Part shown: piece by piece, positions 16,613 to 44,319 of the stretch
Layout: each line of letters opens with the position of its first letter
How positions within the stretch are numbered: position 1 is the first letter of the stretch
From: Campylobacteraceae bacterium
GTDB taxonomy: Bacteria > Campylobacterota > Campylobacteria > Campylobacterales > Arcobacteraceae
NCBI GenBank assembly: GCA_013373175.1
Contig: JABXII010000013.1
Coordinates: forward strand, 62,001-126,000
Length of the DNA stretch: 64,000 nucleotides
Direction: 5' to 3'
Notes under the pieces: generated by a model
The model's input: only the letters and a program-made list of their open reading frames with translations
Told to the model about the DNA's origin: nothing
Databases searched by the model: none
Made by a program: the position numbers and the translations under genes

Positions 16613-17353
16613 TTACTCCAATCCTTGAAACCCAACACTATCAAGTTGTTGAGCTAGTTTATAATCTCCTGTTTTAACTATCTTTCCATCTTTTAAAATA
16701 TGAACAAAATCAGGTTTTACAAGATTTAATAGTTTATCATAGTGAGTAATCATTAATAATGATCTACTTTTATCTTCTAATAGACTATTTATAACTTTTG
16801 CAACAGTTTTAATAGCATCTACGTCAAGCCCTGAATCTATTTCATCTAACATAATTAAGTCAGGTTTTAATAAAAGTAGTTGAATTAACTCATTTCTTTT
16901 TTTCTCACCACCAGAAAAACCATCATTTAAATCTCTTTGTAAAAGTGATTTATCAATATCGAATTTTGCTAACTCACCTTTTGAGTATTTTAAGAAGTCC
17001 ATTGCATCTAACTCTTCTTCTTTGTGGTATTTTCTTTTTTCATTTACAATAGTTTTTAAAAAGTAACTATTATTTACACCAGGAACTTCAACTGGGTTTT
17101 GGAAACTTAAAAATATACCTTCTTTAGCACGTTGTGAAACATCTAATTCTAAAAGGTCTTTATCTTTATATTTGATTCCTCCACTTGTAACTTCACAGTC
17201 ATAGTGGTCACTAATAGTCTTTACAAGTGTTGATTTACCTGCACCATTTTGTCCCATAAGCACGTGAATCTCACCTGGCTTTATGTCTAAATTTAAACCT
17301 TTTAAAATCTCTTTATTTTCTATATTTACTTTTAAATCTTTAATATTTAACAT
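16613..17353 (-). CDS. sufC: SufC ATPase
   Basis: The 246-residue ABC ATPase has Walker A GQNGAGKST, the SufC-type signature FSGGEKKRNE, and Walker B LIMLDEIDSGLDVDA. It powers the SufBCD scaffold. The ATG at 17353 has AAAGGA 7 bases upstream. That Shine-Dalgarno is the 3' arm of the structured intergenic element described separately. Confidence 0.96.
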   Translation of the reverse strand: MLNIKDLKVNIENKEILKGLNLDIKPGEIHVLMGQNGAGKSTLVKTISDHYDCEVTSGGIKYKDKDLLELDVSQRAKEGIFLSFQNPVEVPGVNNSYFLKTIVNEKRKYHKEEELDAMDFLKYSKGELAKFDIDKSLLQRDLNDGFSGGEKKRNELIQLLLLKPDLIMLDEIDSGLDVDAIKTVAKVINSLLEDKSRSLLMITHYDKLLNLVKPDFVHILKDGKIVKTGDYKLAQQLDSVGFQGLE

Positions 17354-17491
17354 TATTTATTCCTTTAAAAATGTTCCATTTTTCAAGGGAACCTTTTTAT
17401 TTATTAACACTTTTTTGTCATGATTTATAAAAAATCATTAAAAAGTGACCAAAAACTCTAAAGGAGATAACGAGTTATCTCTTTTTTTGTT
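17354..17491 (-). promoter_or_regulatory. structured intergenic RNA element, copy A (sufB-sufC)
   Basis: Read on the transcribed (minus) strand, the 138-base gap folds into three parts. Hairpin 1 is at 17464-17481 (GAGATAA stems, CUCG loop), and a conserved UCCUUUAG follows. Hairpin 2 is at 17408-17447 (outer CACUUUUU pairing, inner AUGAUUU/AAAUCAU, 3' bulge GAC). Hairpin 3 is GGUUCC/GGAAC (17373-17377 with 17388-17392). Its loop is complementary over 10 of 11 bases to the segment holding the sufC Shine-Dalgarno (17362-17372). The doeD-doeC gap carries the same layout and conserved single-stranded blocks. Hairpin 1 plus T-rich flanks could also act as a partial terminator. This may be a cis-regulatory RNA or a dispersed repeat. 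Confidence 0.65.
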
Positions 17492-18928
17492 TTATCCCAC
17501 ACTTCCTTCTAAAGAGATACTAAGTAACTCTTTAGCTTCCGCTGCAAACTCCATTGGTAACTCTTTTAATACCTCTTTACAGAATCCATTTACAATCATT
17601 GCAATTGCATCTTCTTCATCAATACCTCTTTGAGATAAATAAAATAGTTGTTCTTCAGATATCTTTGAAGTAGTTGCTTCATGCTCAATATGTGCACTTG
17701 AGTTTTTAATCTCATGATATGGATAAGTATGAGCTTTACATTTGTGTCCAATTAAAAGTGAATCACACTCAGAAATATTTCTTGCATTTTTTGCATTTTT
17801 ACCTACACTTACTAAACCTCTATAAGCATTTACCCCAGTCATAGCTGAGATACCTTTTGAGATAATAGTTGATTTTGTATTTTCACCTAAGTGAATCATT
17901 TTACTACCAGTATCTGCTTGTTGGGCACGACTTGAAATAGCTACAGAGTAGAATTCACCAACTGAGTTATTTCCTTTTAAAACACATGAAGGGTATTTCC
18001 ATGTTAAACTAGAACCTGTCTCAACTTGTGTCCAAGAGATTTTTGAGTTTTCACCTTTACATAAACCTCTTTTAGTAACAAAGTTTAAAATACCACCTTT
18101 ACCCTCATCATCACCTGGATACCAGTTTTGAATAGTCGAATATTTTATTTGTGCATTATCTAAAGCGACTAATTCTACAACTGCAGCATGAAGTTGTCTT
18201 TCATCTCTCATTGGAGCTGAACATCCTTCATTATAAGAAACATAAGAGTTTTCATCACAGATTATTAGTGTTCTTTCAAACTGTCCTGTATCTAAAGCAT
18301 TTATTCTAAAGTAAGTAGAAAGTTCCATTGGACATTTAGTATTAGGTGGAATATAAACAAAGCTTCCATCTGTAAATACTGCACTATTTAGTGTTGAAAA
18401 ATAGTTATCGTTTTTACTTACAACTGAAGCTAAATATTTTTTTAAAATTTCTGGATGAGAATGGGCTGCTTCTGAAATAGAACAGAAGATAATACCTAGT
18501 TTCTCTAACTCTTCTTGATAAGTCGTTTTTACAGAAACTGAATCAAATACAGCATCAACTGCAACACCTGCAAGCATTTTTTGCTCTTCTAATGGAATCC
18601 CTAATTTTTCGTATGTTTTTAAAATCTCTGGATCTACTTCATCTAAAGAATCCAATGCTTTTTTAGGTGCACTATAATATGCAATATCTTGATAATCTAT
18701 TTTTGGATAATTTAGATGCGCCCAATCAGGCTCTTCCATTTTTAACCAAATCTTGTATGCTTTTAATCTAAAGTCAAGTAACCACTCTGGCTCTTCTTTC
18801 TTTTTTGAGATGGCTTTTATTACATCTTCATTTAAGCCTTTAGGAAATGTATCACTTTCTACAAGTGTTTCAAAACCTAATTTGTAGTCTTGTTTCAAAA
18901 TCTCTTTTAAATGGTTGTTTTCACTCAT
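17492..18928 (-). CDS. sufB: SufB Fe-S scaffold subunit
   Basis: The 478-residue protein is full-length SufB. Recognisable pieces are YYSAPKKA near residue 90, [37 protein letters not shown], and the C-terminal core with [20 protein letters not shown] and [21 protein letters not shown]. It forms the scaffold with SufC and SufD, on which clusters are built. It is the first gene of the operon and is preceded by a dyad operator. After it comes the structured element, not a short gap. Confidence 0.96.
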
Positions 18929-42804: not shown

Positions 42805-44199
42805 CTATTTAGCTGGTCCTACCCATACTTGTTGAGTATTCACAAACATCTTAATACCATGTGGTCCTAACTCTTTTCCAAGTCCAGATTTTTTTACACC
42901 ACCACTTGGAAGCCTAGGGTCTGATTTAACAATTCCATTTACAGAAACTTGCCCAGTAACAATTTTACCTGCTAATTTTTTCCCTTTTTCAACATCTCCT
43001 GTCCAGATTGAACCACCCAGACCATACTCTGTATCATTTGCAATTTTAATTGCATCTTTTTCATCTTTTGCTTTTATAACTGCTGCAATTGGTCCAAATG
43101 TTTCTTGGCATGATACTACCATTCCAGGATTTACATCTGCAAGCATTGTTACAGGGAAGAAGAAGCCTTGACCTTCATGTCTTTGTCCACCTAAAACAAG
43201 TCTAGCACCAGCTTGTACTGATCTATCTACTTGATTATGCATCTCTTCAACTAATTCTTCTCTTGCAATTGGTCCAATAGTAGTAGAGTCATCTTTTGGG
43301 TCACCTAGTTTTAATTTTTCAAATCTTGACTTTAATAATTCAATAAACTCTTCATAAATTGGCTCTTCTACAATTATTCTTTTTGCTGCAATACAAGATT
43401 GACCAGCATTGATATATCTAGAAAGAACAATAGTATCAGCAGCTTTTTCTAAATCTGAAGTATCTGCTAATACAATAGCAGGATCACTTCCTCCTAATTC
43501 TAAAACTACAGGTTTTATTTCATTTCCTGCAATTGCCCCAACACTTGCACCTGCTTTTGAAGACCCTGTTAAAGATACTCCTTTTACAATAGGGTTTCTA
43601 ATAACAGACTCTAAGCTTTCATGTCCAATCACTAAGTTTTGAACTAAGTTCTTTGGAGCTCCAGCTTTTTCAAAAGCTTCTACAATTCTTACTGCACAAA
43701 GTGGAGTGTGGGAATCATGCTTCATAACGCAAGCATTTCCAGACATCAGTGCAGGTGCTAGATATCTAAATGCTAACCAAAATGGAGCATTCCAAGGTAA
43801 AATTCCTAAGGTTACTCCTAAAGGAAGATATTGCACATAACTTTCACTTGCATCTGATTCAAGATATTCAGTTTTTAAATAATCTTCTCCAAACTGTGCG
43901 TAATGTTCTGCTGCCCATGCAGCTTTATTTACTTCGCCCCTTGCTTCATTGATAGGTTTTCCCATCTCTTCAGTCATAGGAAGTGCATAGTAATCAAGAT
44001 TATCTTTCATCTCTTTAGCTACACTATTTAAAAGTTCTGCTCTTTTTTCATAACTTGTATCTTCCCATGTTGTTTCAAAAACATCTTGGGCTTTTTCTAT
44101 AATTTCTCTTGCTTCTTGCTGTGTATGCATTTTTATTTCATATACTACTTCTTGTGTATATGGATTAATTGATTTAAAGTGTGTATTGCTATATCCCAT
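42805..44199 (-). CDS. doeC: NAD(P)-dependent aldehyde dehydrogenase, probable aspartate-semialdehyde oxidising DoeC
   Basis: The 464-residue ALDH has ILPWNAPFWLAFR, VSLTGSSKAG, the catalytic Glu in VVLELGGSDPAIV and Cys in NAGQSCIAAKR, plus ETFGPIAAVI near the C-terminus. It resembles succinate-semialdehyde dehydrogenases. In the doe context it should oxidise aspartate semialdehyde to aspartate. Its Shine-Dalgarno AAGGA is the 3' arm of the structured element that separates it from doeD. Confidence 0.87.
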   Translation of the reverse strand: MGYSNTHFKSINPYTQEVVYEIKMHTQQEAREIIEKAQDVFETTWEDTSYEKRAELLNSVAKEMKDNLDYYALPMTEEMGKPINEARGEVNKAAWAAEHYAQFGEDYLKTEYLESDASESYVQYLPLGVTLGILPWNAPFWLAFRYLAPALMSGNACVMKHDSHTPLCAVRIVEAFEKAGAPKNLVQNLVIGHESLESVIRNPIVKGVSLTGSSKAGASVGAIAGNEIKPVVLELGGSDPAIVLADTSDLEKAADTIVLSRYINAGQSCIAAKRIIVEEPIYEEFIELLKSRFEKLKLGDPKDDSTTIGPIAREELVEEMHNQVDRSVQAGARLVLGGQRHEGQGFFFPVTMLADVNPGMVVSCQETFGPIAAVIKAKDEKDAIKIANDTEYGLGGSIWTGDVEKGKKLAGKIVTGQVSVNGIVKSDPRLPSGGVKKSGLGKELGPHGIKMFVNTQQVWVGPAK

Positions 44200-44319
44200 T
44201 TTTCTATCCTTAAAAAATGTCCCAGTTTTTAAGGGACCTAAATTTATTTATATTTTCTTTTAGCGATGAGAATAATCTCATCTAAAGAAACAAATCCTAA
44301 AGGAAGCAACGAGTTGCTT
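44200..44319 (-). promoter_or_regulatory. structured intergenic RNA element, copy B (doeD-doeC)
   Basis: The 120-base gap has the same architecture as the sufB-sufC gap. Hairpin 1 is at 44304-44319 (AAGCAA/UUGCUU, CUCG loop), then UCCUUUAG. Hairpin 2 spans 44254-44290 (outer UUUCUUU/AAAGAAA, inner GAUGAGA/UCUCAUC, 3' bulge GCU), then AAUAAAU. Hairpin 3 is GUCCC/GGGAC (44219-44223 with 44233-44237), whose loop side CCUUAAAAA is complementary to UUUUUAAGG holding the doeC Shine-Dalgarno. Stem sequences differ from copy A but pairing is kept, while loop and linker blocks are identical. The element begins right at the doeD stop codon. Confidence 0.65.

Follow-up and report, generated by a model that had tools for sequence, protein, structure and literature searches.

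An apparently undescribed structured RNA element with mutually exclusive 3' hairpins at the start codons of unrelated Arcobacteraceae genes

The gap between sufB and sufC in a genome of the Arcobacteraceae holds a structured RNA element, apparently undescribed so far, that recurs in sense at the start codons of unrelated genes across the family. Its helices covary, two pairings at its 3' end are mutually exclusive, and it has been gained and lost at individual loci. With about even confidence, we regard the element as a cis-acting RNA leader cassette, mostly intercistronic and dispersing, which governs translation initiation of the next cistron by means of a two-state 3' switch and a sensing 5' core. 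Judging by this anatomy, the switch would alter translation and the core would sense something.

The window, that is the whole stretch of 64,000 nucleotides analysed here (Campylobacteraceae bacterium, contig JABXII010000013.1, positions 62,001 to 126,000), contains two copies, A and B (Table 1). With the end of sufB at 17492 and the start of sufC at 17353, the gap coincides exactly with copy A; the identities of both proteins were confirmed by NCBIfam. A preliminary description had held that this gap is not a plain spacer, and the parts it named are all found on the transcribed (-) strand: a CUCG-capped hairpin, the block UCCUUUAG, a bulged hairpin, a GUUCC/GGAAC hairpin and, within 17361-17389, a hairpin loop complementary to the Shine-Dalgarno (SD) segment. 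The duplication it reported is equally real. Copy B fills the space between a diaminobutyrate transaminase-like gene on its 5' side and an aldehyde dehydrogenase (SSADH-like) gene on its 3' side, for which the earlier labels doeD and doeC are plausible, and its 3' end sits just ahead of the aldehyde dehydrogenase ATG. Compared within the window, copies A and B match at E ~4e-6, with only the 3' half covered.

Table 1. Positions of the two element copies, their parts and the adjoining cistrons in the window
Feature	Position	Strand	Basis or remark
Copy A, whole element	17354..17491	-	between sufB and sufC; covariance model R1 72.3 bits, R2 86.5 bits
sufC, cistron adjoining copy A	16613..17353	-	TIGR01978, 328 bits
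P1 hairpin of copy A, GAGAUAA-CUCG-UUAUCUC	17464..17481	-	sequence
Joining segment of copy A, CUUUAG-AG-UUUUUG, conserved	17450..17463	-	family consensus CUUUAG-NN-UUUG
P2 hairpin of copy A, internal loop and variable apical helix	17408..17447	-	basal and apical helices covary
P3a hairpin of copy A, GUUCC/GGAAC	17373..17392	-	anti-anti-SD arm is GGAAC; SD free in P3a form
P3b alternative hairpin of copy A, CCCUUGAAAAAU/AUUUUUAAAGG	17362..17389	-	SD covered in P3b form
SD of sufC, AAAGGA, 3' end of copy A	17361..17366	-	sequence
Copy B, whole element	44200..44319	-	begins right behind the upstream stop codon; covariance model R1 121.3 bits
Aldehyde dehydrogenase (succinate-semialdehyde-dehydrogenase-like), cistron adjoining copy B	42805..44199	-	
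P1 of copy B, AAGCAA-CUCG-UUGCUU	44304..44319	-	
Joining segment of copy B, CUUUAG-GA-UUUG	44291..44302	-	
P2 of copy B, UUUCUUU/AAAGAAA, A/GCUA internal loop	44254..44290	-	
P3a of copy B, GUCCC/GGGAC	44219..44237	-	
P3b of copy B, CCUUAAAAA/UUUUUUAAGG	44208..44234	-	

The two copies belong to a large family. A BLAST comparison of copy B with the whole genome returned four more strong copies, preceding genes that we take from their sequence to be dnaJ/cbpA, a gene for a HIT-family protein, cysK and mnmG/gidA. Five copies align cleanly, with strong covariation, and a covariance model built from five copies of this genome (R1) found 11 copies there, detected the element in each of the 16 genomes of the genus, and gave hits in 81 of 104 Arcobacteraceae genomes, representing 16 of 20 genera. 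Positive Arcobacteraceae genomes carry 1-26 copies each, about 500 in total when the table is summed. When 84,980 named species were scanned by pattern, the matches were almost exclusively Arcobacteraceae (Arcobacter, Aliarcobacter, Halarcobacter and Poseidonibacter), the few records with other taxon labels probably being mis-binned assemblies. Plasmid and phage collections gave no match to Arcobacter and Campylobacter-type queries, and a pattern scan of IMG/VR gave a single contig, which bears a core-only repeat. The preliminary description had expected an RNA class to reveal itself in such a family-wide search, and many homologues with compensatory changes, next to varied genes, were indeed obtained.

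Its statement that no described RNA family has this layout also holds: Rfam 15 yielded no match in the window at the gathering threshold and nothing relevant at E<=1 for eight copy-bearing loci. A literature search, with subscription papers and supplements outside its reach, found no account of the element. Structured intergenic motifs have been described from the same bacterial group, namely HRC-4 and unnamed motifs of Arcobacter sp. L (PMC6429828). HRC-4 is presented there as a small, sig70-like motif, which sets it apart from the element. Because most Arcobacter intergenic motifs were left without names in that source, and its supplements were not covered by our search, an earlier notice of a single copy in those supplements is possible (Stav et al., 2019, PMC6429828).

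The consensus reads UA(R)-P1-CUUUAG-NN-UUUG-P2-AU linker-GGUCCC(N9)GGGAC-A/U tail-AAGGA-start codon. P1 may be any hairpin of 6-7 bp, with CUCG as the commonest loop; in P2, a conserved basal stem (YUWCUUU/AAAGWAR) leads through an A/GNUA internal loop to an apical helix whose sequence is free to vary. Support for these helices comes from an independent MAFFT alignment of 68 copies (A5), which was built without structure information. With P3b as the 3' helix, 95.6% of its cells are paired, compared with 73.6% in shuffles, changes on both sides occur in 23 of 30 pairs, and every helix covaries; the covariation score is 0.591, against 0.167 for shuffled and at most 0.159 for slid versions. When P3a is substituted for P3b, pairing amounts to 97.7%, and P1 taken by itself is 99.5% paired, with double changes in six of six pairs. 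Nine further copies in the same genome, together with covariation beyond shuffle and slide controls, exclude chance, and the earlier claim of selection on RNA structure is supported. Wobble counts, small as they are, point to the strand: on the sense strand G-U exceeds A-C by 27 to 11 over P1, P2 and the apical helix, and by 16 to 1 in the apical helix (again small counts), which fits expectation if selection acts on the sense-strand RNA. A further pairing, between CUUUAG and the SD, could form in most copies (85% of cells) and dominates 29 of 138 folds; we rejected it as a supported helix, since CUUUAG is invariant and is found even where P3 is absent, which leaves no covariation evidence for it.

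How might such an element act on translation? The CCC of GUCCC can pair either with GGGAC, giving P3a, or, extended by the UU and the A/U bases that come after it, with the SD-containing tail, giving P3b. We envision that the CCCUU segment, when engaged with GGGAC, would leave the SD free, and that it would cover the SD when engaged with the AAGG tail and flanking A/U pairs. The 5' core, consisting of P1, CUUUAG-NN-UUUG and P2 with its A/GNUA loop, would be the likely receptor that shifts the balance between both forms, and its input might be a general cellular signal or an RNA-binding factor. Both pairings are maintained across the family: the two anti-SD C's are paired with SD G in 59/64 and 64/64 distinct sequences, and with G of GGGAC in 64/64 and 62/64. 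Moreover, the loop changes together with the tail, as in the cysK copy, which has CCUUUAUAUUUG/CAAAUUGAAAGG where most copies have CCUUAAAAA/UUUUUAAGG. Calculated mean energies are -6.3 kcal/mol for P3a and -5.9 kcal/mol for P3b, and the two lie within 3 kcal of each other in 30 of 68 copies; P3a is strongly favoured in 26 of 68, so that not all copies need be bistable. Folding of whole leaders predicts a mostly paired SD in 100 of 150 copies versus 10 of 36 control genes taken from elsewhere in the window, the latter proportion showing that paired SDs are also predicted for some control genes of this AT-rich genome.

The SD-masking pairing of the preliminary description is therefore upheld, in that P3b covers the SD and covaries, and its H-type pseudoknot is not. 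Both helices covary, but the loop/tail helix uses nearly every loop nucleotide, shares CC with the GUCCC/GGGAC stem and leaves almost no linker. Given these shared bases and near-absent linkers, a full pseudoknot is improbable; the two pairings are more naturally read as exclusive, and a pair of near-isoenergetic hairpins that rule each other out is the better fit.

For position and targets we studied 164 distinct copies from many genera, a sample that leans to complete, high-scoring copies. A sense ORF starts behind 152 of them, mostly 0-6 nt past the end of the model; the other 12 precede genes that are short or truncated (rubredoxin among them, read by eye), are upstream tandem members, or in one case are a repeat on a viral contig. 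The 152 downstream ORFs fall into 89 gene families, among which no shared pathway or single metabolite was found. Going by sequence, the targets presumably include sufC, dnaK, dnaJ, P-II, thrC, transaldolase, hisA, hisH, gatC, ispH, ferredoxin, rubredoxin, guaA, aroA, ddl, urease, nitrogenase and hydrogenase genes. The original suggestion of a control dedicated to the Fe-S ATPase, or to its ligand, is at odds with these unrelated target families and with the many relatives whose sufC lacks the element; without a common pathway among the targets, an Fe-S-specific ligand is not supported and no ligand can be named.

Occupancy of individual loci changes readily. Among 30 relatives whose sufB-sufC gap was examined, the full element is found in six, in one of which the P3 loop contains a foreign hairpin. 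Another relative has just P2-P3, in the close relative G003 an internal deletion has kept both ends and the SD, and in many the gap is a plain one of 20-35 nt. The junction of ruvA and ddl is ancestrally tight, and the element was gained in a clade including this genome, in which P1-P2 were lost afterwards and P3 was retained. At dnaJ the element sits in the leader, behind a promoter-like sequence, and more than half of the readable genomes of the genus either lack it or have it in decayed form. Non-orthologous copies reach 92% identity compared with a mean of 84.7% for orthologous pairs, which points to dispersal that is recent relative to the divergence of species. Tandem arrays of two or three adjoining copies also occur, with a period of ~112 nt in Arcobacteraceae and of 79 and 172 nt in genome G573. 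No clear target-site duplication was seen, the left flank ending in TAA/TAG; an AAAG duplication beside the SD, suspected by eye, dissolved into TAA/TAG plus one extra P1 pair.

Several other arrangements were noted in passing. In this genome, nfo is preceded by a P3 module alone and ddl by a P3 remnant; a lone P3 module also precedes rpmA in another family. Several genomes have a second small hairpin repeat, CTTCATAGCG..GTCTTGTGACGAACG..GTGAAG, that interrupts the element either in the P3 loop or in P2, and in two dnaJ copies the P2 stem harbours a different palindromic insert of ~40 nt. The dnaJ leaders of the genus contain a strongly conserved TTGATTGACNTTGACTCAAGTTT box that overlaps the promoter region, with or without the element.

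In the reading we favour, the cassette has spread to many genes and been lost again from some, and dispersal would take the gene's own SD as its right-hand junction. A tentative extension is a mobile translational switch, dispersing through the Campylobacterales and docking sense-only at SDs with a self-adjusting anti-SD hairpin, that might put dozens of unrelated genes under one global signal read by P1-P2.

Alternatively, the element may be a selfish interspersed structured repeat of the BOX, REP or MITE kind, whose structure is kept for propagation and of which only sense copies supplying a working SD at start codons survive. We think this somewhat improbable, and a serious competitor nonetheless. 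Its unrelated target genes, its polymorphic presence (sufC, ddl, dnaJ), decay, tandem copies and the high identity of non-orthologous copies are all as expected of such a repeat. The pneumococcal BOX, RUP and SPRITE repeats, described as probably parasitic, are likewise short, interspersed, structured, lineage-limited and co-transcribed with genes (PMC3049150); unlike them, the Arcobacteraceae copies are all in sense, and the gene's own SD lies inside a covarying hairpin. Against this view, not one antisense copy was seen among the 164, and terminal inverted repeats are lacking, P1 and the 3' end being free to vary in sequence. From copy to copy, moreover, the SD-complementary arm changes in step with the tail, and G-U pairs are in excess on the sense strand. 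The MITE-like repeat raised in the preliminary description as the alternative to an RNA class thus fails within Arcobacteraceae, being contradicted by orientation and ends; what survives of it is that the element disperses and that core-only relatives elsewhere resemble interspersed repeats.

These relatives, a P1-CUUUAG-UUUG-P2 core without the switch, occur in other Campylobacterales; with Arcobacteraceae included, the core is present in at least 67 of 399 Campylobacterales genomes and at least 18 of 87 genera. In G114 and G119 its copies are intergenic repeats on both strands and away from start codons, as a selfish repeat would have it. At four loci from several genera the core is oriented in sense and directly precedes mature 16S rRNA, one of these having another in the 16S-23S spacer, upstream of 23S. 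At four others it lies antisense directly after the 23S rRNA 3' end, its conserved parts being complementary to the sense cores before 16S; this, too, sits well with a selfish repeat. A prophage-like region (G430:C1:371000-411500) contains at least eight copies, all in sense and shortly before start codons; one gene of this region encodes a protein of more than 4200 aa. Nothing argues more strongly for the core having started out as a mobile repeat, or being one still, than these placements of its switchless relatives as repeats, next to rRNA genes and within a prophage-like region. Since the relatives are frequently found at a distance from start codons, the core may have a function of its own outside translation.

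Conceivably, this might be mRNA processing or stability, the hairpins separating cistrons or shielding the next cistron from 5'-3' decay, and the same core helping to trim the 16S 5' leader in relatives. A same-strand ORF ends within 400 nt upstream of 151 of 164 copies compared with 37 of 48 control genes (p 0.008), and this mostly intercistronic placement agrees with such a role, as do the cores directly ahead of mature 16S and the one in a 16S-23S spacer. We nevertheless judge it unlikely, because it leaves the exact CCCUU/GGGAC/AAGG exclusivity unexplained and does not accommodate the dnaJ copies in an apparently monocistronic leader or the antisense copies after 23S. Antitermination RNAs of the rrn boxA and put type likewise have a CUUUA-rich core and two hairpins, and cores of the element are found in rRNA leaders and a prophage-like region; in contrast, the CUUUA of its P2 covaries as a stem, and start-codon docking would stay unexplained. 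Nor is the core the boxA of the rRNA leaders, since a boxA-like sequence, CAATCTTTGAAATCTAAA, lies elsewhere in the same leaders (read by eye).

Could one defined ligand or temperature be the signal, which would make the element a classical riboswitch or an RNA thermometer? Conserved joining and internal-loop nucleotides combined with an SD-control platform, and the AU-rich P3b, would suit this reading. Like anti-SD/anti-anti-SD expression platforms of riboswitches, the element has exclusive helices that cover or free the SD, a conserved 5' domain and tandem copies; unlike them, it has no gene-function theme, known aptamer or Rfam match, is always docked at start codons, and is highly polymorphic between close species. 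PreQ1-II is a small H-type pseudoknot riboswitch that occludes the SD. The same is described for SAM-V (PMC6061858). In both, as here, a hairpin loop is complementary to the SD segment just downstream, but the helices of our element share bases with almost no linkers, so that they look exclusive rather than co-folded, and an additional P1-P2 domain stands upstream. With 89 target families lacking a common pathway and no Rfam class at E<=1, we regard a riboswitch as very unlikely, and equally a thermometer, for which the conserved P1-P2 core would be needless; covariation and an upstream position alone do not make a metabolite riboswitch. CsrA-type translational repression at the GGA motifs, which are present in both conserved 3' segments (GGGAC and AAGGA), can be dismissed almost entirely, given that a CsrA homologue was found in none of the 104 Arcobacteraceae genomes at the search sensitivity used, which recovered the positive controls.

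Should the switch function in the way that its anatomy implies, a single dispersed RNA module would set the translation of scores of unrelated operon genes family-wide without CsrA, in a system that would be easily testable. The element would then count among the rare dispersing repeats that double as a uniform regulatory device.
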